DNA of 64,000 nucleotides from Castellaniella defragrans. GTDB taxonomy: Bacteria; Pseudomonadota; Gammaproteobacteria; Burkholderiales; Burkholderiaceae_B. Below are positions 1-11,678 of the stretch, piece by piece. The notes under the pieces are model-generated. The model ran no database searches. It was not told the origin of the DNA and worked only from the letters and a program-made list of their open reading frames with translations. Within the stretch, counting starts at the first letter, position 1. Every line of letters starts with the position of its first letter. Location: the NCBI RefSeq assembly GCF_014203015.1, contig NZ_JACHIB010000014.1:62001-126000 (forward strand). The letters run 5' to 3'. Position numbers and translations under genes: made by a program.

Positions 1-535
1 GCCGGGCGTGATAGACGACCGGCATGCCGAAGCCCAGCGCCGCCCGGCGCGCCAGCGCCTGGCCGATGCGGCCGTAGCCGACGATGCCCAGGGTCTTGCC
101 GTGCACGTCCCAGCCGTATTCCTCGGGGCCGACGTTGCGCACCCACCGCCCTTCGCGCACCAGGCTCGCCATGTCGCACAGCCGGCGGCTGGTGGCCAGC
201 ACCATGCCGAACAGCAGGTCCGCCACCGATTCGGTCAGCACCCCGGGCGTGTGGCACAGCACGATGCCGCGCTCGCGCAGCGCGGCCAGCGGATAGGCGT
301 CCACGCCCACCGAGATGCTGGACACCACCCGCAGGGCGGGCGCCCGGTCGAGCATCGCCGCGTCCAGGCGGACGCTGGAGCCGATCATGCCCTGGACCCG
401 GCCCAGCGCCTGGAAGAACGCCTCGCGCTGGTCCTCGCGCCGGGGATCGGCCTGGATGACCTCGTGCTCCGCCTGGATCCGCGCCAGCTGCGGCTGGGGC
501 AGTTCGCGGTAGACGAGGACGGTCTGGCGTGGCAT
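1..535 (-). CDS. kguD: 2-hydroxyacid dehydrogenase, KguD/GhrB-like (3' end outside window)
   Basis: NAD(P)-dependent D-isomer-specific 2-hydroxyacid dehydrogenase; about 178 N-terminal residues are present and the gene runs off the left edge. It begins MPRQTVLVYREL at 535, with GGGAG a few bases upstream. The nucleotide-binding motif GYGRIG follows VHGKTLGIV at about residues 150-165. The family includes glyoxylate/hydroxypyruvate reductase B and 2-keto-6-phosphogluconate reductase. As last gene of an operon with KguK- and KguE-like genes under a PtxS-type operator, the best reading is KguD, reducing 2-keto-6-phosphogluconate to 6-phosphogluconate in the cytoplasm. The specific substrate is inferred from context; the family is clear from the sequence. 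Confidence 0.8.
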   Translation of the reverse strand, partial: MPRQTVLVYRELPQPQLARIQAEHEVIQADPRREDQREAFFQALGRVQGMIGSSVRLDAAMLDRAPALRVVSSISVGVDAYPLAALRERGIVLCHTPGVLTESVADLLFGMVLATSRRLCDMASLVREGRWVRNVGPEEYGWDVHGKTLGIVGYGRIGQALARRAALGFGMPVVYHAR

Positions 536-633
536 GAGACGGACTCCCTGAAAAGATGGATTGGCCAAGATGGACCGGTCGCCGCGCCGCCCCGCGGGCG
601 GCAGGCCGGCAAGCCGGCCGACGAACCGGCCGG

Positions 634-1584
634 CTACAGCCCGGCCAGCCCCAGCACGGCCCGGGTGGGCAGGCCTTCGGTGTCGCCGCGCACCTGCACC
701 GCGCGCGCGCCGATCCAGGCCCCGCGCGCCACGGCGCGTTCCAGCGGCAGGCCTTCGAGCAGGCCGCTGATCACCCCCACGGCGAAGCCGTCGCCCGCGC
801 CGACGGTATCGACGACGCGCTCCACCGGGCTGGCCGGCACGTGGCCGCTGCGCGTGCCGTCATCGTAATACGCCCCGTCGGGGCCGAGCTTGACGACCAC
901 CAGGCGCGCGCCCAGGCCGAGGTAGAAGCGCGCGACGGCTTCGGGCTCGTGCTCGCCGGTCAGGAGGCGTCCTTCCTCGATGCCGGGCAGCACCCAGTCC
1001 GCCAGGGCGGCCAGTTCGTTGATGCCGGCGCGCATGGCCTCGGTCGAGGCCCACAACGTGGGACGCAGGTTGGTATCGAAGGACACGGTCCGGCCGGCCT
1101 TGCGCATCAGGCGCATGGTCTGGCGCGACACCTCGAAGCTGTCCGCCGACACCGCCGCGAACACCCCGGTGGCGTGCAGGTGGCGGGCCGACAGCAGCCA
1201 GTCCAGGTCCACGTCGTCCAGGCGCATGCGGCTGGCGGCCGAGCCCGCCCGGTGGTATTCGACCTTGGGGTCGCTGCCGTCCAGGACCCGGCCCTTGAAC
1301 AGCAGGCCGGTGCGCTCGCCCGGCGCCAGGGCCACGCGCGAACAGTCCACGCCCTCGCCACGCAGGCTGTCGAGCAGGTAGCGGCCCAGGGAATCCTGTC
1401 CCAGGCGGCTGCCCCAGCCCACGTGCAGGCCCAGGCGGGCCAGGCCGATGGCCACGTTGGTCTCGGCGCCGGCGGTGCGCTTGTGGAAGATCTCCACCTG
1501 TTCCAGCGGCCCGGGCTGCCCGGCCACCAGCATCACCATCGCCTCGCCCAGCGTGACGACGTCGAGCGGTTCAGTCGTTGTCAT
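634..1584 (-). CDS. kguK: PfkB-family sugar-acid kinase (2-ketogluconokinase / KDG kinase type)
   Basis: A 316-residue PfkB/ribokinase-fold kinase. The N-terminal GEAMVML and the AGAETNVAIGLARLG substrate-lid region are present, and the C-terminal anion-hole/catalytic-base motif DTVGAGDGFAVG lies near residue 260. Family members phosphorylate 2-keto-3-deoxygluconate or 2-ketogluconate with ATP. Its start overlaps the end of the kguE-like gene by 14 bp, which suggests translational coupling. Because it sits between KguE- and KguD-like genes and behind a PtxS-like operator, 2-ketogluconate is the preferred substrate. 2-keto-3-deoxygluconate remains possible and cannot be excluded from sequence. 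Confidence 0.85.
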   Translation of the reverse strand: MTTTEPLDVVTLGEAMVMLVAGQPGPLEQVEIFHKRTAGAETNVAIGLARLGLHVGWGSRLGQDSLGRYLLDSLRGEGVDCSRVALAPGERTGLLFKGRVLDGSDPKVEYHRAGSAASRMRLDDVDLDWLLSARHLHATGVFAAVSADSFEVSRQTMRLMRKAGRTVSFDTNLRPTLWASTEAMRAGINELAALADWVLPGIEEGRLLTGEHEPEAVARFYLGLGARLVVVKLGPDGAYYDDGTRSGHVPASPVERVVDTVGAGDGFAVGVISGLLEGLPLERAVARGAWIGARAVQVRGDTEGLPTRAVLGLAGL

Positions 1585-2368
1585 GGGAAGATTGCTCCAG
1601 TCGGCGCAGCGCGTCCAGCGCCTGGCCGGTGATCCGGGCGAGATCCGCGCCCGTCAGCGGATATTCGATGGCCCGGGGGGCGGCGGCGGGCAGCGCCCGC
1701 AGCACCGCGCGCCAGGGCGCGGCGGACGACTCCAGCGGCACGGCCACCCAGCGGTCGGGACGCCGCAGCGCCCCTTTGCAATGCACGTAGCGCACGCGCG
1801 ACCCGAAGACGCCGGCCGCCCGCAGGGGGCATTCGCCCACCCAGTGCCAGTTGCCCATGTCGAAGGTCATGCCCAGCGGCAGCCCGGCATCGTCGGCCGC
1901 GCGGAAGAAGGCCCGCAGGGCCGGGACCGTGCCCGCCGATTCCGTCTGGTCGTTCTCCACCAGCAGCTCGACCGGCGCGCCGGCCAGCAGGATCCGCAGG
2001 CTGTCCAGGCCCGCCGGGGCGTGCGGTGCGAAGCCGCCGATCGACATTTTCAGCCAGGCCGCCCCCAGCCGGGCCGCGCGCTCCAGGCCTTCGCGCACCG
2101 CGGCCTCGTCGAGGCGGCCGGAGGCGTCCCAGATCCCGCGCGGACTGGAATAGACGCGCGCCAGGCCGGCCTCGGCGGCCAGCGCCGCCAGCGCGTCGAG
2201 CTCGCCCGCGGCATCCTCGCGCAGCAGCTCGCCGCGCACCTCGATGCCGTCGGCGCCGGCCGTGCGCGCCAGGCGCGCGAACCAGGCCTGGCCATGGCGC
2301 CGGACTTCGTCGGCGCCGAACGCCGTCAGGGACACCAGCGCGCCGCGCGCCGGAATCTGCATGTGCAT
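1571..2368 (-). CDS. kguE: sugar phosphate isomerase/epimerase (KguE-like TIM barrel)
   Basis: A 265-residue AP-endonuclease-2/xylose-isomerase-like TIM barrel. Metal-site-type motifs are visible: VENDQT, TFDMGNWHW and YVHCKGA. In Pseudomonas kgu operons a protein of this family (KguE) accompanies KguK and KguD. Its exact reaction is poorly defined, so no substrate is claimed. It starts 9 bp after the ABC ATPase stop and overlaps the kinase start, so it belongs to the same transcript. The second methionine (2362) is an alternative start. Confidence 0.78.
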   Translation of the reverse strand: MHMQIPARGALVSLTAFGADEVRRHGQAWFARLARTAGADGIEVRGELLREDAAGELDALAALAAEAGLARVYSSPRGIWDASGRLDEAAVREGLERAARLGAAWLKMSIGGFAPHAPAGLDSLRILLAGAPVELLVENDQTESAGTVPALRAFFRAADDAGLPLGMTFDMGNWHWVGECPLRAAGVFGSRVRYVHCKGALRRPDRWVAVPLESSAAPWRAVLRALPAAAPRAIEYPLTGADLARITGQALDALRRLEQSSHDND

Positions 2369-2377
2369 GGCCGGCCC

Positions 2378-3148
<771 letters not shown>

Positions 3149-3168
3149 GGCGGCGGGTCGGGAGTCGA

Positions 3169-3978
3169 TCAGGATTGCTTCAGCTGGGGCAGCGGCGTGC
3201 CCAGCCACTTCTGGTAGAGCTTGCTGAATTCGCCGTTCTGGACGTTGCGGTCGATCAGCTCGTTGACGGCCTTGAGCGTTTCCGGCTGGCCCGGGCGCAT
3301 GGCGACCGCCATTTCCTGCTGCAGCAGCACGAACTTGTTGTCGAAGCGGTCCGGGGCGCGCTTGGCGATGCCGGCGGCCACCGTGGTGGAGCAGCCGATC
3401 GCATCGACCTGGCCCGACAGCAGGGCCTGCATGGCCGAGGCGTCGTCGTCGAAGCGGCGGATGTCGGCGTCCTTCGGGGCGATCTTGCTGACCGCGATGT
3501 CCTGGGTGCTGGCGCGCGCCACGCCGATCTTCTTGCCCGACAGGCCTTCCGGACCGGAGATCTTCAGGTCCTTGCCGCCGAACACCACGATCTGCGCGGC
3601 CGAGTACGGGTGCGAGAACTGCACCTGCTTGGCCCGCTCCGGCGTGATCGCCAGCGAGGCCACCAGCACGTCGACCTTGTCGGTCAGCAGGTAGGGGATG
3701 CGGTTGGGGCCGGTGACCGGCACGATCTTGAGCTTCACGCCCAGGTCCTTGGCGAGGAGCTTGGCCACGTCGGCGTCGTAGCCGTCGGGCTGGTTCTCGG
3801 CGTTCATGATGCCGTAGGGCGGGAAATCGACCAGCATGCCGACCGTCAGCTCGCCCTTCTGCCTGACCTGGTCGATGGTCTCGGCCGAAGCCGCGGGCGC
3901 CAGGCCGACGGCCAGGGTGGCGCAGGCGGCCAGCAGGGTGCCCCCCAATATGCCGCGCAAGGTGTGACTCTTGAACAT
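3169..3978 (-). CDS. family 3 periplasmic solute-binding protein (amino-acid type)
   Basis: Secreted substrate receptor of the ABC importer, about 269 residues. The start MFKSHTL at 3978 is preceded by GGAG about 8 bp upstream; the longer frame from 4020 lacks this. A signal peptide ([22 protein letters not shown]) ends near residue 33. The mature part is a typical SBP_bac_3 fold: [17 protein letters not shown] near the start, later [10 protein letters not shown] and the hinge-region segment [10 protein letters not shown]. This family normally binds polar amino acids, but the operon suggests 2-ketogluconate or a related sugar acid. Confidence 0.9.
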
Positions 3979-4056
3979 AGTACGTCTCCGTGAGGTTGTC
4001 GGCCTGGGGCCTGTTGACACTGAAAAGGGGCGGGACTCGCCCCGGAAATCAGGCGC

Positions 4057-4713
4057 TCATTCGCGCGCCTGGGAAAGCGCCAGGCGCCGCTCCATCCGCC
4101 CGGCCAGCAGCGACAGCGGCCAGCACAGCAGGAAATACAGGGCCGCCACGATGGAGAACACCACCATGGGCTCGAACGTGGCGTTGTTCACGATCTGGCC
4201 GGCGCGGGTCAGTTCGGTGAAGCCGATGATGGCGGCAAGCGACGTGCCCTTGATGACCTGGACCAGATAGCCGACCGTGGGCGGCACGGCGATCTTGAGC
4301 GCCTGCGGCAGGATCACGTCGCGCAGGCGGTCGCGGTAGTTCAGCCCCAGGGCGGCGGCGGCTTCCCACTGGCCGCGCGGCACGGCTTCGATGCAGCCGC
4401 GCCAGATCTCGCCCAGGAACGAGCCCGCGTTCAGCGTCAGCGCCACGGCCGCGGCCGTCCAGGGATCGACCTCGAAGCCGACCACCGGCGCGCCGAAGAA
4501 CACCAGGAACAGCTGCAGCAGCAGCGGCGTGCCCTGGAACACCTTGATGAATCCCGTGGCCAGCGTCCGGAGGGCGCGGTTCGCGCCGGTGCGCGCCAGG
4601 GCCACCGCCAGCCCGACCAGGCCGCCGCCGATGAAGGCGATGATCGACAGCAGCACCGTCCACTGGGCGGCCTGCAGGATGTACCAGAAGTCGGAGGAGC
4701 CGAAGGTTCTCAT
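4057..4713 (-). CDS. ABC transporter permease, polar-amino-acid type (second subunit)
   Basis: Inner-membrane permease of 218 residues starting MRTFGSSDFWY. It has several hydrophobic segments and the EAA coupling loop EAAAALGLNYRDRLRDVILPQALK that docks on the ATPase. Its ATG overlaps the stop of the upstream permease by 4 bp (ATGA), consistent with coupled synthesis of a heterodimeric channel. The HisM/GlnP family is clear; the substrate is inferred only from the surrounding kgu-like genes. The long frame extending upstream of 4713 is a shadow of the neighbouring gene. Confidence 0.92.
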   Translation of the reverse strand: MRTFGSSDFWYILQAAQWTVLLSIIAFIGGGLVGLAVALARTGANRALRTLATGFIKVFQGTPLLLQLFLVFFGAPVVGFEVDPWTAAAVALTLNAGSFLGEIWRGCIEAVPRGQWEAAAALGLNYRDRLRDVILPQALKIAVPPTVGYLVQVIKGTSLAAIIGFTELTRAGQIVNNATFEPMVVFSIVAALYFLLCWPLSLLAGRMERRLALSQARE

Positions 4714-5384
4714 GAGCGGCCGTCCGGATAGCTGAGATACCGGTCGTGGATCCGGCGGAAGACGTAGGAGAAGCACAGCGTCAGCGCCAGGTAGATCAGC
4801 GTGATGACGATGTAGATCTCGAAGCTGCGGAAGGTCTCGGACTGCAGGGTGGCGGCCACCGAGGTCAGGTCGTCGGCCGAGATCACCGACACCACGCTGG
4901 AGGCCAGCATCAGCAGGATGAACTGGCTGGTGAGCGCCGGATAGATGGCGCGCAGCGCGGGTTTCAGCACCACGAAGCGGAAGATCTCGACCCGCGTGAG
5001 ATTCAGCGCCAGGCCGGCCTCGATCTGGCCGCGCGGGATGGCCTCGATCCCGGCGCGCACGATTTCCGTGGCGTAGGCGCCCAGATTGACCGTCATGGCC
5101 ACCAGCGCCGCCGTGTAGGGCGACCAGCGCACGCCGACGGCCGGCAGCGCGAAGAAGAAAAAGAACAGCTGGACCAGGAACGGCGTGTTGCGGATGAGTT
5201 CGATGTAGACCTGGATCAGCGCCCGCAGCGGCGCCGGCCCCGACGTCTTGCCCCAGGCGCACAGCACCGCCACCGCCAGGCCGAGCAGCATCGCCAGGCC
5301 GGAGAGCTGGATCGTCATCCACGTGCCGTGCAGCAGCAGCGGCCATGCCTGGAATACCGGACCGAACTGGAAGGTGTAATTCAT
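4710..5384 (-). CDS. ABC transporter permease, polar-amino-acid type (first gene of operon)
   Basis: Permease of 224 residues. The chosen start is MNYTFQFGPVFQAW at 5384, because the upstream in-frame extension would run across the operator and promoter. The EAA loop EAGLALNLTRVEIFRFVVLKPALR is clear. It is the first gene of the predicted seven-gene operon permease-permease-SBP-ATPase-kguE-kguK-kguD. A TACAAT -10-like hexamer (5424-5429, minus strand) and the PtxS-like palindrome lie 27-45 bp upstream. Confidence 0.92.
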   Translation of the reverse strand: MNYTFQFGPVFQAWPLLLHGTWMTIQLSGLAMLLGLAVAVLCAWGKTSGPAPLRALIQVYIELIRNTPFLVQLFFFFFALPAVGVRWSPYTAALVAMTVNLGAYATEIVRAGIEAIPRGQIEAGLALNLTRVEIFRFVVLKPALRAIYPALTSQFILLMLASSVVSVISADDLTSVAATLQSETFRSFEIYIVITLIYLALTLCFSYVFRRIHDRYLSYPDGRS

Positions 5385-5410
5385 GGGGATCGCCGGGGAA
5401 TCCGCATCGA

Positions 5411-5424
5411 TGAAACCGGTTTCA
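5411..5424. promoter_or_regulatory. PtxS-type LacI-family operator TGAAACCGGTTTCA
   Basis: A perfect 14-bp palindrome with the central CpG typical of LacI-family operators. It abuts a minus-strand TACAAT -10-like element (5424-5429), so a bound repressor would block the ABC-kgu operon. From memory, the sequence equals the published Pseudomonas PtxS operator. The adjacent LacI-family gene is the obvious binder. Confidence 0.8.
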
Positions 5425-5562
5425 TTGTACTGAAGCGCACCGCCTTTGAAAATCGGGGCTAACCCTGGGCGCATCGGATCGCGTCGCCGCCCGTCCGATG
5501 GCACATCTTTCCACGCCGCGCCCCGCGGAGCGCGCCGATCCGGGCGGCCGCCGGCGGCCCGC

Positions 5563-6588
5563 CTACGGCTCCAGCCGCGTCGAACCCCGCGCCATCAGCG
5601 TCCCGGGCAGACGGATCGTGCGGGCGGGCACGGCCAGTCCGCCGATGCGCTCGATCAGGCATTGCGCCGCCAGGCTGCCCAGGGCATCGGTGGGCTGCGC
5701 CACCGCGCTGATGCCCGGCCCGACGTACGGCGCCCAGGGCGTGTCGTCGATGCCGATCAGGCCGATGTCCGGCCCCAGGCGCCAGCCCAGTTCCGCCACG
5801 GCGGCCACGATGCGCATGGTCACGACCCCGTTGCCCGCGATCACCGCGGGCGGGCGGCGCGCGCCGGCGCGCAGATCCCGCAAGGCCCGTGCCAGGCCGG
5901 ACGGATCGCCGGCGCCCGCCTCGATCCACCAGCCGGTGGCCGGCGCGCCCAGGGCCGCCAGCCGCGTCTCGTAGGCGCGGATGCGCTCGATGCGGGAACT
6001 GACCGCGCCCAGCGGCTCGCTGACGAACAGGAAATCGCGGTAGCCCGCGGCCATCAGGTGGTCCAGGCAGGCATCGACGGCCTGGCGGTTGTCCAGCGAG
6101 ACGAAATCGACGTCCAGGCCCTGGTGCAGGCGATCGACCAGCACCACCGGCCGGCCGCGCAGGGCCGGCGTCAGCACCGCGCCCTGCTCCAGGCCCATGG
6201 TGTTCAGGATGAAGCCCTCGACCTGGTAAGTGGACAGCACCTGCAGGCCCACGCTCTCGCGCTCGCGCTCGTTGCCCAGGTTGAACAGCATCATCAGGTA
6301 GCCCGCCTGGCGGCAGGCCTGCTCGGCCCCGCTCAGCACGGCGACGGAATAGGGATTGGTGATGTCGGCCACCACCAGGCCGATCAGCCGCGAGCGGCCG
6401 CGCTTGAGCGCCCGGGCCATCGGGCTGGGCGTATAGGACAGGGCCTCGATCGCGGCCTCGACCCGGCGGGCGATTTCCGGCGACAGCAGGGTGTCGCGGT
6501 GGTTCAGGAACCGCGATACCGTGGCCTTGGAAACCCCCGCGTGGCGGGCCACGTCGGCGATCGTGCTGCGCGGCGGATGATTGCTCAT
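5563..6588 (-). CDS. ptxS: LacI-family transcriptional regulator, PtxS-like
   Basis: A 341-residue LacI/GalR repressor. The N-terminal HTH (STIADVARHAGVSKATVSRFLN) and hinge helix (PMARALKRGRSRLIGLV) are intact, followed by a periplasmic-binding-protein-like effector domain (VVADITNPYSVAVLSGAEQA). The start is MSNHPPRS at 6588; the open frame continues far upstream but antisense to zwf. It lies directly upstream of the operon carrying a PtxS-type palindrome and in the same direction. PtxS of Pseudomonas responds to 2-ketogluconate, which fits the kgu-like genes. The effector is inferred. Confidence 0.85.
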   Translation of the reverse strand: MSNHPPRSTIADVARHAGVSKATVSRFLNHRDTLLSPEIARRVEAAIEALSYTPSPMARALKRGRSRLIGLVVADITNPYSVAVLSGAEQACRQAGYLMMLFNLGNERERESVGLQVLSTYQVEGFILNTMGLEQGAVLTPALRGRPVVLVDRLHQGLDVDFVSLDNRQAVDACLDHLMAAGYRDFLFVSEPLGAVSSRIERIRAYETRLAALGAPATGWWIEAGAGDPSGLARALRDLRAGARRPPAVIAGNGVVTMRIVAAVAELGWRLGPDIGLIGIDDTPWAPYVGPGISAVAQPTDALGSLAAQCLIERIGGLAVPARTIRLPGTLMARGSTRLEP

Positions 6589-6630
6589 GGGCGGAAAGTC
6601 CGGAAGGATGCGCGGGGAGCGGAGCGGGAC

Positions 6631-6645
6631 TGTACTTTTACTACA
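6631..6645. promoter_or_regulatory. HexR-like operator upstream of zwf
   Basis: The 15-mer TGTACTTTTACTACA (other strand TGTAGTAAAAGTACA) has TGTA/TACA arms around a 7-bp centre, like reported HexR sites. It lies 70 bp before the zwf start and 43 bp before the ptxS start, so it could affect both divergent genes. A hexR gene is in the same cluster. Confidence 0.65.
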
Positions 6646-6714
6646 TAATGGATGCGGAGCCCTATTCCACACCACGCCACCCCACACGGCCGACCCGCCC
6701 CCCGCACCGAAACC

Positions 6715-8169
6715 ATGAGCGCGCTTCCAGACACCGACTTCATCCTCTTCGGCGGCACCGGGGATCTCGCCGTGCGCAAGCTGCTGCCCGCCCTGTACCG
6801 CCTGCACTGCCAGGGCCTGCTGCCCGACCCGATGCGGATCGTCGCCAGCGGGCGCACGCCCCACGACGACGACGCCTACCGGGCATGGCTGCGCGCCGCG
6901 CTGGAGGCGCGCGGCCTGCTGCTGCGCGACTGGGCCGGCTTCGAGCAGCGGCTGCACTACCAGCCGCTGAACGTCCACCAGCAGGAAGGCTTCGCCGCGC
7001 TGGCCGCGCGCCTGCGGCCGGACCGCACGCGCGTGTTCTACCTGTCCACCGCGCCGTCGCTGTTCTCCCCCATCTGCCGCGGGCTCCACGCCCACGACCT
7101 GATCCTGCCCGACAGCCGGATCGCCGTGGAAAAGCCCCTCGGCCAGGACCTGGCCTCCTCGCAGGCCATCAACGACGACATCGGCCGCTATTTCCTGGAA
7201 TCCCGGACCTACCGCGTCGATCACTACCTGGGCAAGGAAGCGGTCCAGAACCTGCTGGCCCTGCGCTTCGGCAACACCCTGCTCGAACCGCTCTGGCGCC
7301 GCGAATGGGTGCGCGACGTCCAGATCACGGTCGCCGAACAGGAAGGCATCGGCTCGCGCGGCGAGTTCTACGACCACACCGGCGCGCTGCGGGACATGGT
7401 GCAGAGCCACCTGCTGCAGATGCTGTGCATCATCGCCATGGAGTCCCCGCCCAGCATCCATGCCGACGCCGTGCGCGACGAAAAGCTGAAGGTGCTCGCC
7501 GCGCTGGAGCCGCTGGGCGGCGCGGCCGTGCTGACGCACACGGTGCGCGGCCAATATCTGGCCTCGGCGGCCGGGCCCGCCTACCGCGAGGAAGCCGGCG
7601 TCCAGGCCGACAGCCAGGTCGAGACCTTCGTCGCCCTGACGGCGCGCATCAACAACTGGCGCTGGGCCGGCGTGCCGTTCTTCCTGCGCACCGGCAAGCG
7701 CATGCACCGGCGCCTGGCGGAAATCGTGATTTCGTTCCGCGACGTGCCCACGTCGATCTTCGACACGCCCCTGGCCGGCCTCCAGGCCAACCGCATCGTC
7801 ATCCGCATGCAGCCGCAGGAAACCCTGTCGCTGCACCTGATGGCCAAGCGGCCCGGCGACGGCATGCGCCTGCAGCCGGTGTCGCTGAACCTCGATTTTT
7901 CCAAGGCCTCGCAGTCCCGCCGGCTGGCGGCCTACGAGTGGCTGCTGGGCGACATCCTCAAGGGCAACCTGACCCTGTTCGTGCGCCGCGACGAGCAGGA
8001 GGCCGCCTGGCGCTGGATCGAGCCCATCCTGCGGGCCTGGACGGAGGTGGGCCAGGCCGCCGAACCCTACGCTGCCGGCTCCTGGGGCCCCGCCGCAGCC
8101 GAGGCCATGCTGGCCCGCCACGGCCTGTACTGGCACACCGGGCTGGATCTCGAAGGGCAGGACCCATGA
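6715..8169 (+). CDS. zwf: glucose-6-phosphate 1-dehydrogenase
   Basis: Oxidises glucose 6-phosphate to 6-phosphoglucono-1,5-lactone with NAD(P)+; cytoplasmic, 484 residues, normal family length. The N-terminal dinucleotide fold has FGGTGDLAVRKL and the substrate/catalytic motif RVDHYLGKE sits at about residues 167-175. The start MSALPDTDFILFGG at 6715 places the nucleotide motif at the usual distance; the open frame begins at 6652 but lacks conserved sequence there. First gene of zwf-glk-pgl, each overlapping the next by 4 bp. A HexR-like site lies upstream. Confidence 0.95.
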   Translation: MSALPDTDFILFGGTGDLAVRKLLPALYRLHCQGLLPDPMRIVASGRTPHDDDAYRAWLRAALEARGLLLRDWAGFEQRLHYQPLNVHQQEGFAALAARLRPDRTRVFYLSTAPSLFSPICRGLHAHDLILPDSRIAVEKPLGQDLASSQAINDDIGRYFLESRTYRVDHYLGKEAVQNLLALRFGNTLLEPLWRREWVRDVQITVAEQEGIGSRGEFYDHTGALRDMVQSHLLQMLCIIAMESPPSIHADAVRDEKLKVLAALEPLGGAAVLTHTVRGQYLASAAGPAYREEAGVQADSQVETFVALTARINNWRWAGVPFFLRTGKRMHRRLAEIVISFRDVPTSIFDTPLAGLQANRIVIRMQPQETLSLHLMAKRPGDGMRLQPVSLNLDFSKASQSRRLAAYEWLLGDILKGNLTLFVRRDEQEAAWRWIEPILRAWTEVGQAAEPYAAGSWGPAAAEAMLARHGLYWHTGLDLEGQDP

Positions 8170-9176
8170 CGCGCGCGGCGCTTCCCACGGCCGCCGGGGA
8201 TACCTTCCCCCGGCTGGTCGGCGACATCGGCGGCACCCACGCCCGCTTCGCCCTGATCCTGGCCGAGGGCGAGCCCCTGGTCCACACCCGCGTCCTGCCC
8301 AGCCCGGCCTTCGGCGGCCCGGCGCAGGCCATCGCCGCCTACCTGGAAGCGGTCCGCGCGCCCGCGCCGCGCTGGTGCGCCTTCGGCATCGCCAGCCCGG
8401 TCTGGGAAGACCAGGTGCGCATGACCAACCTCCACTGGCGCTTCTCGATCTCGGCGCTGCGGGCCGCCCTGGGGCTGGACGTGCTGCGGGTGATGAACGA
8501 TTTCGCCGTGCTGGCCATGGCGATCCCGGCGCTGCGCCCCGCCGACCTGCGCCAGGTCGGCGGCGGCGCGCCCCGGGCCGGCGCGGCGATCGGCCTGATC
8601 GGCCCCGGCACGGGCCTGGGCGTCTCCGGGCTCGTCCCCTGCGGCGCGGACTATGTCCCCGTGGCCGGGGAAGGCGGCCACGCCACGCTGGCCGCGCGCG
8701 GACGCGAGGAGGCCGAGCTGATCGAATGGATCGGCGAGCGCCACGGCCACGTTTCGGCCGAACGCCTGGTGTCCGGCCCCGGGCTGGAAAACCTGTACCT
8801 GGCCCACGCCGCGCGCCAGGGCGTGGCCGTGGCCGCGCTGGACGCGGCGGAAATCGGCGCGCGGGCGCTCGCCGGCACGGATCCGCTGTGCGTGCAGGCC
8901 CTCGACAGCCTGTGCGCCTTCCTCGGCACGGCCGCCGCCGACCTGGCCCTGATCCTGGGCGCGCACGGCGGCATCTGCATCGGCGGGGGCATCGTGCCGC
9001 GGCTGGGCGCGTTCTTCGACCGCTCTCCCTTCCGCGCCCGCTTCGAGGACCAGGGGCGGTTCCGCGGCTACCTGGCCCGCATCCCGACGCGGGTCATCCA
9101 GGCGCAGCACCCCGCCCTGCTGGGCGCGGCCCGCGTCCTCGCCCAACTGGCCCGATCCGGGGAGCCCGCCGCATGA
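8166..9176 (+). CDS. glk: glucokinase
   Basis: ATP-dependent glucokinase of the ROK-independent Glk family (336 residues), converting glucose to glucose 6-phosphate for Zwf. The phosphate motif LVGDIGGTHARFAL is at residues 17-30, and GPGTGLGVSG and VPVAGEGGHAT are present. The ATG overlaps the zwf stop by 4 bp and its own stop overlaps the pgl ATG by 4 bp, so the three are a tight, translationally coupled operon. No sugar PTS gene is visible nearby, consistent with phosphorylation of free glucose. Confidence 0.94.
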   Translation: MTRAALPTAAGDTFPRLVGDIGGTHARFALILAEGEPLVHTRVLPSPAFGGPAQAIAAYLEAVRAPAPRWCAFGIASPVWEDQVRMTNLHWRFSISALRAALGLDVLRVMNDFAVLAMAIPALRPADLRQVGGGAPRAGAAIGLIGPGTGLGVSGLVPCGADYVPVAGEGGHATLAARGREEAELIEWIGERHGHVSAERLVSGPGLENLYLAHAARQGVAVAALDAAEIGARALAGTDPLCVQALDSLCAFLGTAAADLALILGAHGGICIGGGIVPRLGAFFDRSPFRARFEDQGRFRGYLARIPTRVIQAQHPALLGAARVLAQLARSGEPAA

Positions 9177-9835
9177 ATCTGCCCGTCTGGCGCATCGCCG
9201 CCGATCCGGCGGCCCAGGCCCGCGCGCTCGCGGCGGCGCTGGCCGCCGTGCTGGCGGAGGCCGCCGGCCGCCACGGCGAGGCCTGCCTGGCGGTCTCGGG
9301 CGGCCGCTCGCCCGGCCCGCTGTTCGACGTCCTGCACGACGCGGCCCTGCCCTGGGCGCGCATCCGCGTCGTCCTGGTCGACGAGCGCCTCGCCCCGGAG
9401 GAGTCGGACGAGCGCAATGAAGGGCTGGTGCGCCGGCGCCTGCTGCGCGGGCCGGCCGCCGCCGCGCGCTTCACGCCGCCCCTGGACGCCGCCGGGCGGC
9501 CGATCCGCGCGCCCGCGCGCATCGACGCGCTGGTGCTGGGCATGGGCGCCGACGGCCACACCGCCTCCCTGTTTCCCGATGCGCCGGAACTGGCCGCCGC
9601 CCTGGATCCGGGCCGCCCGCCCGCCTACGTCTTCGTCACCCCGCCGGCCGCGCCCTGGCGCCGCGTCACCCTGAACCTGGCGGCGATCCTGGGCGCGGAC
9701 CGGCTGTTCGTCGCCCTTTCGGGCGGCGACAAGCGCGCCGTGCTGGAACGGGCGCTGCGCGCGGGCCGCGCCGGCCCGCCGATCGGCGCGGTCCTGGCCG
9801 GGGCCGCCACGCCGGAAATCCACTGGTGCCCGTAG
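9173..9835 (+). CDS. pgl: 6-phosphogluconolactonase
   Basis: Hydrolyses 6-phosphogluconolactone to 6-phosphogluconate; 220 residues, DevB/SOL family. Family motifs include [30 protein letters not shown] and [14 protein letters not shown], followed by [10 protein letters not shown]. Last gene of zwf-glk-pgl. It ends 10 bp from the convergent edd gene, so the two transcripts meet end to end with no obvious terminator between them. Confidence 0.93.
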
Positions 9836-9845
9836 CGGCATCCGC

Positions 9846-11678
9846 TCAGCGGCCCGCCCACTGCGGCCACTGGAAAAAGCAGGCGCCCTGCTCGGCCCCG
9901 TCCGCGTGGGCGCGGGCCACGCCGAACAGGTCGCGGCCGATTCCCTGCGCGGACGCCTCCGGATCGAAGGCGGCCGGCGCGCGCGCCAGCCAGGCCGCGT
10001 CCCCCCGCACCTCCAGCGTGCCGGCGACGGCGTCCAGCCGCACGAGGTCGCCGTCGCGCAGCCGCGCCAGCGGCCCGCCCGCGCAGGCCTCGGGCGTGAC
10101 GTGGATGGCGGCGGGCACCTTGCCCGAGGCGCCCGACATGCGGCCGTCGGTGACCAGGGCCACCCGGTGGCCGCGGGCCTGCAGCACGGACAGCGCGGGC
10201 GTCAACTGGTGCAGTTCGGGCATGCCGTTGGCGCGCGGCCCCTGGAAGCGCAGCACCGCCACCAGGTCGCGCTCCAGTTCGCCGCGCCCGAAGGCTTCGA
10301 GCAGCGCCGCCTGGGTCTCGAAGATCCGCGCGGGGGCCTCGACCACGCGGTGCTCGGGCGCGACGGCGGACACCTTGATCACCGCGCGCCCCAGGTTGCC
10401 GCGCAGCAGCTTCAGCCCGCCGTCGGGGCTGAAGGGCGCGTCCGCCGCGCGCAGCACCGCCGCGTCCGCCGAGGCGCGCGGGCCGTCCTCCCAGACCAGC
10501 GCACCGTCGCGCAACGCCGGGCGGCGCGTGTAGGCCTCCAGCCCCCGGCCCATGATGGTGGTCACGTCCTCGTGCAGCAGCCCGGCCTCGCGCAGGCTGC
10601 GGATCAGGACCGCCATGCCGCCCGCCGCCTGGAACTGGTTCACGTCGGCCGGGCCGTTCGGATAGACGCGCGCCAGCAGCGGCACCACCGCCGACAGCTC
10701 GGAAAAATCGTCCCAGTCGATGGCGATGCCCGCCGCGCGGGCGACCGCCACCAGGTGCAGGGTGTGGTTGGTGGAGCCGCCGGTGGCCAGCAGGCCGACG
10801 ATGCCGTTGACCAGCGCGCGCTCGTCGATGACTTCGGCCACCGGCGTGAAGCGCCCGCCTCCGGCGGCCAGGCCCAGCGCGTGGCGCGCGGCCTCGCGCG
10901 TCAGGGCCTCGCGCAGCGCGGTGCCCGGCGGCACGAAGGACGCCCCCGGCAGGTGCAGGCCCATGATCTCCATCAGCATCTGGTTGGAATTGGCCGTGCC
11001 GTAGAAGGTACAGGTGCCGGGCGCGTGATAGGCCGCCATTTCCGAGGCCAGCAGCGCGTCGCGGCCCACCTCGCCCTGCGCATGCCGCTGCCGCACGCGG
11101 GACTTTTCCTCGTTGGAGAGGCCCGAAGGCATCGGACCGGCCGGCACGAAGACCACCGGCAGGTGGCCGAAGCCGAGCGCGCCGATCAGCATGCCCGGCA
11201 CGATCTTGTCGCACACCCCCAGGCAGACCGCCGCGTCGAACATCTGGTGGCTGAGCGCGATCGCCGTGGCCATGGCGATCACGTCGCGGGAAAACAGGCT
11301 CAGTTCCATGCCCGCCTGGCCCTGCGTGATGCCGTCGCACATGGCGGGCACGCCGCCCGCGAACTGCGCGCTGCCGCCGGCGGCGAAGGCGGCCTGCCGG
11401 ATCCAGGCCGGATAGCGCCCCAGCGGCTGGTGCGCCGAGAGCATGTCGTTGTAGGCCGAGACGATGGCCAGGTTGGGCCGTTCGGAGCCCGCCAGGCGCG
11501 CCTTGGCGGCAGCGGGCTCGGCCGCCAGGGCGTGGGCCAGGTTGGCGCACGCCAGCCCGGCGCGCTGGGTCTTTTTCCCATAGGCGGCGCGGCTGCGCGC
11601 CAGGTAGCGCTCGCGCGTGGCGCGGCTGCGGGCGGCGATGCGTTCGGTGACGGACTGGACGACGGGATGAAGGGTCAC
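9846..11678 (-). CDS. edd: 6-phosphogluconate dehydratase (Entner-Doudoroff)
   Basis: Dehydrates 6-phosphogluconate to 2-keto-3-deoxy-6-phosphogluconate (KDPG); 610 residues, full IlvD/Edd length. Fe-S ligand regions are visible: [25 protein letters not shown] and [13 protein letters not shown]; the C-terminal part has [18 protein letters not shown]. It is divergent from hexR, with two HexR-like 15-mers between them. No KDPG aldolase gene follows it, and none was seen elsewhere in the window, so eda must be unlinked or replaced. Confidence 0.96.

Follow-up and report, generated by a model that had tools for sequence, protein, structure and literature searches.

A probable 2-ketogluconate utilisation locus of Castellaniella defragrans with a polar-amino-acid-type ABC importer where Pseudomonas has KguT

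The window analysed here is a stretch of 64,000 nucleotides from Castellaniella defragrans (C14:62001-126000 of a 3.94-Mb assembly in 45 contigs), and at one of its ends genes resembling the kgu genes for 2-ketogluconate (2KG) utilisation follow the genes of an ATP-binding cassette (ABC) importer of the polar-amino-acid type. All parts of this arrangement lie on the minus strand, and their gene content was assigned by profile searches against Pfam and NCBIfam. A PtxS-like repressor of the LacI family (5563..6588; LacI and Peripla_BP_3) stands upstream of permease 1 (4710..5384) and permease 2 (4057..4713), both BPD_transp_1 proteins scoring 100.3 and 98.6 bits against the HEQRo_perm_3TM model (cut-off 42.2). 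These are followed by a family 3 solute-binding protein (SBP; 3169..3978; SBP_bac_3), the proposed receptor for 2KG, and by a GlnQ/EhuA-like ABC ATPase (2378..3208; ABC_tran), which at 316 bits stays under the GlnQ cut-off of 379 and whose start codon is uncertain, GTG at 3208 or ATG at 3148. Then come a kguE-like gene for a xylose-isomerase-like TIM barrel (1571..2368; AP_endonuc_2), a kguK-like gene for a PfkB kinase, predicted to be a 2-ketogluconate kinase (634..1584; PfkB), and a kguD-like gene for a predicted 2-keto-6-phosphogluconate reductase (2..532; 2-Hacid_dh). The last is incomplete in the window, being clipped by its edge, which corrects the first-pass annotation of this DNA; the complete gene was read from the sequence beside the window (L004 9567-10532). 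That annotation had also described one overlapping operon, a description that holds for the pairs permease 1/permease 2 and kguE/kguK, whereas gaps of about 78 bp separate permease 2 from the SBP gene and about 100 bp kguK from kguD.

The enzymes and the regulator find their counterparts in the Pseudomonas putida locus used as reference (L085), which has the published order ptxS-kguE-kguK-kguT-kguD. Identities to the P. putida proteins are 45% for PtxS, 40% for KguE, 57% for KguK and 50% for KguD, and these values, with the profile matches, confirm the earlier assignment of KguE-, KguK- and KguD-like genes behind a set of SBP, two permeases and ATPase. With P. putida KguK and KguD as queries, the window's genes are the top matches in the genome (351 against 27 bits for the next match, and 321 against 142). 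Two other names suggested by NCBIfam were rejected, KDG kinase for KguK (192 bits, cut-off 400) and GhrB for KguD (352 bits, cut-off 492); the P. putida proteins also fall below these cut-offs (162 and 438 bits), and each pair shares the same profile of sub-cut-off matches. The LacI-family gene upstream and the palindrome at the promoter, both noticed at first pass, stand as well. The recognition helix reads VSKATVSRF in the window's PtxS and VSKASVSRF in that of P. putida, and the perfect palindrome TGAAACCGGTTTCA occupies 5411-5424, precedes the permease 1 start by 26 bp, occurs exactly once in the assembly and was matched at up to one mismatch in 0 of 100 shuffled windows. According to two reports, it is the published Pseudomonas PtxS site with 2KG as effector, the transcription start of P. 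plecoglossicida falls inside the PtxS site, 34 bp upstream of kguE, and Pseudomonas KguK and KguD act on 2KG and its phosphate (PMC11678583, PMC5902321). The locus therefore has in common with the ptxS-kguEKTD loci of P. putida, P. aeruginosa and P. plecoglossicida a PtxS-like repressor, an identical operator, kguE, kguK, kguD and a feed into Edd and Eda, but its gene order is different, and where those loci have KguT, a carrier of the major facilitator superfamily (MFS), it has a four-subunit ABC importer first in the operon. Orthologues of KguK and KguD are present along with KguE and a PtxS with its operator; since KguT was found neither at the locus nor, at E 1e-60, in the genome, we regard this as a variant and not as a canonical kgu operon. 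We consider it probable that the window holds a complete 2KG utilisation locus in which a polar amino acid transporter (PAAT, family 3) of the ABC type takes the place of KguT.

A P. aeruginosa kguT mutant did not grow on 2KG (PMC6237876), so where a kgu locus has no KguT, 2KG must enter by some other importer. KguT gave no match in the window's own genome at E 1e-60, only 32-33% identical matches in 2 of 61 relatives, and a single match of 37% identity at E 1e-75 among 200 genomes of the family, with up to eight candidates scored per genome. When GTDB species genomes were scanned with a KguE alignment, at least 588 loci matched, and the carriers were recorded at the 80 best named ones, ranked on their likeness to a Herbaspirillum sequence, so that the resulting proportions reflect the most Herbaspirillum-like loci and are not frequencies. 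KguT stands at 53 of these 80 (in Pseudomonas, Azotobacter, Chimaeribacter and one metagenome-assembled genome (MAG) of Verrucomicrobiota), a family 3 ABC importer without KguT at 25 (Herbaspirillum, Duganella and Janthinobacterium) and a tripartite ATP-independent periplasmic (TRAP) carrier at one; a Xanthobacteraceae contig has none recognised with the queries used, and none of the 80 has KguT together with an adjacent ABC importer. Thus kguE-kguK-kguD neighbourhoods with family 3 SBPs, which the first-pass annotation had proposed to look for, do occur elsewhere. SBP, both permeases, ATPase, kguE, kguK and kguD are all present in 22 of the 25 ABC loci; the other three are visible from the ATPase onward at a contig end (L053), show no kguK or kguD (L059) or show no kguD (L063). 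Three loci from another family of the same order (L174-L176) have KguT. The TRAP locus, in a Competibacteraceae MAG (L064, 2749-9482), resembles the window in that its kgu enzymes have a carrier that is not KguT, but there kguE, kguK and kguD follow DctP and DctM, a third unrelated importer class, and are themselves followed by a GntP permease and an FGGY kinase.

The association of importer and kgu genes is conserved in the family. We read 22 orthologous loci in detail, 14 first and 8 later, which we call type A. All seven genes are present in 14 of them, the permeases and the ATPase in 21; L014 and L035 are clipped by contig ends. Of the 21 loci with permease 1, 19 have an exact TGAAACCGGTTTCA some 15-150 bp ahead of that gene, and zwf-glk-pgl, discussed below, also stands beside several orthologous loci. 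In the survey of 200 family genomes an SBP of at least 63% identity occurs in 34, KguK (E 1e-75) in 40 and both in 33 (Fisher p 1e-29, a value uncorrected for kinship), and the two genes lie within 2.8 kb of each other in 32 of the 33, the remaining pair being on two contigs. Seven genomes have KguK without the SBP. The idea that these hold kgu loci with another carrier was dropped, as neither kguD nor kguE is found at the four loci read (L180, L181, L186 and L182, the last on a short contig; the reading was confined to these, with G368, G469 and G479 outside it). At L180, L181 and L186 the KguK-like kinases (59-60% identity) adjoin a gene resembling didehydro-deoxy-rhamnonate hydrolase and one for an Eda-like aldolase, and judged by these neighbours they would belong to a different keto-acid pathway. 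The KguK tree does not recover type A as a single group: part of it is joined by three kinases from outside kgu loci, with weak support (82/84). As an observation on its own, L037 (G006:C8:52000-65000) keeps the SBP with kguE, kguK and kguD, has no permease or ATPase gene that could be found, and has an mfd-like gene directly upstream on the opposite strand.

A second version, type B, is found in the Oxalobacteraceae genera Herbaspirillum, Duganella and Janthinobacterium, where the SBP gene comes first, the operator reads TGGAACCGGTTCCA and the SBPs are 40-43% identical to that of the window. Three Herbaspirillum kgu loci (L050, L051, L058) carry two tandem type-B SBP genes ahead of one permease set. 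In a tree of 90 SBPs, from which the type-B rows of 12 loci had been removed by thinning, type A joins paralogues that stand beside L-rhamnonate-type genes (100/97), and type B joins one SBP whose neighbour resembles an arabinonate dehydratase gene (100/98) and three other SBPs (100/99). A single origin was rejected: forcing A and B into one clade costs 138 log-likelihood units (p-AU, from the approximately unbiased test, 2.1e-5, on 47 chosen rows). This implies either that the importer was coupled to the kgu genes at least twice or that it was coupled once and then switched in several paralogues, two routes that the SBP tree fits alike and cannot tell apart. From these sequences, it seems that the carrier was swapped separately in two bacterial groups.

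The pocket of the SBP points in the same direction. In the lysine/arginine/ornithine-binding protein (LAO), Ser72 and Asp161 hold the alpha-amine of the ligand and Arg77 its carboxylate, as described in two studies (PMC5740067, PMC4192606). The window's SBP belongs to the PAAT family by its SBP_bac_3 domain, its partner 3-TM HEQRo permeases and ABC ATPase, and its fold match, which is closest to amino-acid-binding proteins, but it has Ala110, Arg115 and Ser197 at LAO positions 72, 77 and 161, that is, Ala, Arg and Ser in place of the alpha-amino-acid signature Ser/Thr72, Arg77, Asp161. LAO Asp11, Tyr14 and Phe52 correspond to Leu, Phe and Gly. In the alignment, from which matches under 450 bases and the fragments L040 and L041 were left out and in which identical SBPs were merged (the 25 distinct type-B rows come from 22 loci, two more loci being identical copies), the carboxylate-binding Arg77 is kept in all 101 rows. 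Ala at 72 without Asp at 161 is seen in 14 of 14 type-A and 25 of 25 type-B sequences; Asp161 is kept in E. coli GlnH, HisJ, ArgT and TcyJ (4/4), whereas 80 of 80 SBPs with at least 35% identity lack it. The window's importer thus differs from the PAAT importers HisJQMP, LAO/ArgT and GlnHPQ in both amine contacts, Ala and Ser replacing Ser72 and Asp161, and in being tied by regulation and linkage to sugar-acid catabolism. The opine importers NocT and OccJ of Agrobacterium are also family 3 SBPs without the Asp161 carboxylate, NocT likewise having Ser, and their contact with the keto-acid part of the ligand is a further likeness; their ligands are arginine-based opines, however, and of the nopaline signature Gly97-Met117-His170-Ser207 (LAO 72, 92, 122 and 161) the window has only one residue in four (Ala, Ile, Gln, Ser). 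In the same studies, NocT, with Gly and Ser at 72 and 161, was not seen to bind arginine, histidine or ornithine, and a change of the Ser72 equivalent to Gly cost OccJ its binding of arginine (PMC5740067, PMC4192606).

The neighbouring genes would complete the pathway. Divergent from ptxS lie zwf, glk and pgl (6715..9835, plus strand; TIGR00871 528, TIGR00749 275 and TIGR01198 146 bits, each above its cut-off), leading from glucose to 6-phosphogluconate, and beyond them edd for 6-phosphogluconate dehydratase (9846..11678, minus strand; TIGR01196 976 bits, cut-off 708). The edd gene, called adjacent at first pass, is indeed nearby but some 3.3 kb from ptxS, past zwf-glk-pgl; it is eda (NF004325 256 bits, cut-off 241) that adjoins the kgu genes, converging on kguD just beyond the window in the further 10 kb read. 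All Entner-Doudoroff genes for the predicted kgu product are within about 13 kb. Building on the genes, operator, conservation and pocket residues computed directly above, we propose a model whose ligand, repression, co-transcription and enzyme activities are predicted. Without 2KG, the PtxS-like repressor on TGAAACCGGTTTCA would block a transcript perm1-perm2-sbp-atpase-kguE-kguK-kguD. In the periplasm, the SBP would grip the carboxylate of 2KG through Arg115, the equivalent of LAO Arg77, with Ala and Ser now in the positions of Ser72 and Asp161, and the permeases and ATPase would import 2KG at the cost of ATP. KguK would phosphorylate it, KguD would reduce 2-keto-6-phosphogluconate to 6-phosphogluconate, and Edd and Eda would finish the Entner-Doudoroff route, while cytosolic 2KG would relieve repression by PtxS.

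Several observations weigh against this assignment. Among the type-A loci, kguE is missing from L017, L039 and L193 (3/22), kguD from L188 and L191, the permeases and ATPase from L037, and the operator from L018 and L039. KguK-like kinases of 59-61% identity occur outside kgu loci, beside genes resembling didehydro-deoxy-rhamnonate hydrolase and Eda, which means that KguK by itself does not identify such a locus. Just 6 of the first 14 genomes with the kgu-ABC combination yielded a gluconate 2-dehydrogenase subunit (PF13618), and the others would rely on external 2KG or on another oxidase. As to the pocket, Asp161 is absent from all 41 other members of the branch with at least 35% identity; this branch-wide loss argues against ordinary amino-acid binding yet does not point to 2KG in particular, and among 17 controls that are more distant, 9 also lack Asp there. 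Moreover OccJ, with Asn at 161, still has micromolar affinity for arginine, lysine and ornithine, and putting Asp back made little difference (PMC5740067), so position 161 alone is not decisive.

The importer might instead carry a different or broader sugar-acid cargo, for example gluconate, another keto-aldonate or a 2-keto-3-deoxy acid, fed into the kgu route by KguE or other enzymes, with 2KG at most one of several substrates. We think this unlikely, although the paralogues speak for it. The closest paralogous SBPs (53-58%) adjoin genes for a short-chain dehydrogenase/reductase (SDR) and a protein resembling 2,4-didehydro-3-deoxy-L-rhamnonate hydrolase; in the nearest such cluster, L019 of genome G006, the SBP is 55%, the permeases 63-64% and the ATPase 75% identical to those of the window, and the neighbouring genes encode an SDR, a regulator of the IclR type and a hydrolase that reaches 437 bits with the model for 2,4-didehydro-3-deoxy-L-rhamnonate hydrolase, whose cut-off is 500. 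The branch overall adjoins several kinds of acid catabolism, and in G429 an SBP of 63-64% identity has genes for Edd, Eda and a 2-hydroxyacid dehydrogenase as its neighbours, and no kgu kinase. On the other side, PtxS and its operator belong to the 2KG regulon, the Pseudomonas KguK and KguD act on 2KG and its phosphate, and the pocket motifs are almost invariant in type A, unlike those of the rhamnonate-type paralogues. The G429 locus (L183, G429:C1:2190000-2203000; SBP 64%), which also has a LacI regulator, would perhaps reduce 2-ketogluconate directly to gluconate.

It is very improbable that an ordinary polar amino-acid importer stands by the kgu genes by chance and that 2KG enters through an unrelated carrier. 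Such an importer would fit an annotation that reaches family level only (SBP_bac_3, HEQRo permeases, GlnQ-like ATPase), the fold of the SBP, and the weak amino-acid binding by OccJ without Asp161. It has to contend with the loss of both amine-holding side chains in 39 of 39 distinct kgu-linked SBPs, the near-constant linkage, the operator before the permease, the two separate pairings and the lack of any KguT above 37% identity in the 200 genomes. Scarcely credible is an SBP that acts mainly as receptor or scavenger while an unrecognised 2KG permease elsewhere carries most of the flux, for although L037 keeps the SBP and the kgu enzymes without adjacent permeases, and the genome search covered KguT and no other carrier systematically, permeases and ATPase are present in all but one of the type-A loci read.

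The proposal of an importer for 2KG instead of KguT is thus supported computationally by linkage, the missing KguT, the operator, the second pairing and the pocket, with 2KG as the predicted cargo. An importer class that pipelines annotate as taking up amino acids thereby gains a concrete predicted ligand, and the 2KG pathway is seen to retain its enzymes and regulator while its carrier changes from one unrelated class to another (MFS, ABC or TRAP). Uptake driven by ATP and of high affinity would allow 2KG released by other oxidising bacteria to be scavenged. The kgu enzymes, the PtxS regulator and the operator were already known; relative to the open-licence PubMed Central (PMC) literature searched, the ABC carrier in a PtxS/kgu locus, its separate pairing in two groups and a pocket that has lost the amine contacts are new. 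Searches of that literature, judged by titles and abstract openings, turned up neither an ABC importer that takes 2KG nor a sugar-acid branch among family 3 SBPs. A glucosaminate ABC transporter is said to be known from fitness data, and was not found in the literature searched. A term search of PMC4052901 found no 'PtxS', and one of PMC9007349 no 'ketogluconate'.

Such a cargo is less isolated among family 3 SBPs than the first-pass annotation held when it called it unusual, since sugar-acid genes are also the neighbours of related SBPs in that branch. We collected SBP loci from the matches listed, first 27 and then 40 (25 at 35% identity or more and 15 below), and chose the genes for family scans of their neighbourhoods by hand. 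The neighbours include, besides the rhamnonate-type genes, an L-arabinonate-dehydratase-like enzyme of the IlvD/Edd family, a talarate/galactarate-dehydratase-like enolase and OiaX/OiaK-like proteins; only general dehydratase subfamily models of NCBIfam are above cut-off, which limits the claim to enzyme class. An enzyme of a sugar-acid panel (at least 40% identity) stands beside 17 of 39 other branch loci and beside 0 of 17 control rows (at 16 loci, with one match of 29% and none of 40% or more). The panel was drawn partly from the counted loci, 5 of the 17 positives being its sources (12 of 34 without them), so the contrast with the controls is biased and suggestive only. It is quite possible, though we would not call it probable, that this branch of 'polar amino acid' ABC importers, whose SBPs lack the Asp161 contact, is largely a sugar-acid uptake family recruited separately to 2KG (twice), to deoxy-sugar acids of the L-rhamnonate kind and to arabinonate/talarate-like, galactarate/altronate-like and apionate/threonate-like acids, and that many 'amino acid ABC transporter' annotations of the Burkholderiales type are wrong in cargo class. 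Against so wide a reading, 22 of the 39 loci have no panel enzyme at 40% identity or more, L022, L025, L026 and L031 lie beside M20 peptidases, and L024 lies beside an adenosine deaminase. If it were true, the residues at LAO positions 72 and 161 would be of use in reassigning the predicted cargo of many importers of family 3.

The window's own genome has two further importers of the branch, one (L029, G000:C6:11000-24500; SBP 6266-7024) beside a gene that Pfam marks as galactarate/altronate-dehydratase-like and an IclR regulator, the other (L030, G000:C7:129500-142500) with genes for an SDR, a didehydro-deoxy-rhamnonate-hydrolase-like protein and an enolase-family dehydratase. At L020, L021, L189 and L190, a type-A-like SBP (53-58%) without permeases of its own lies within a few kb of a full ABC importer gene set that includes another SBP, and the two binding proteins may share one importer.

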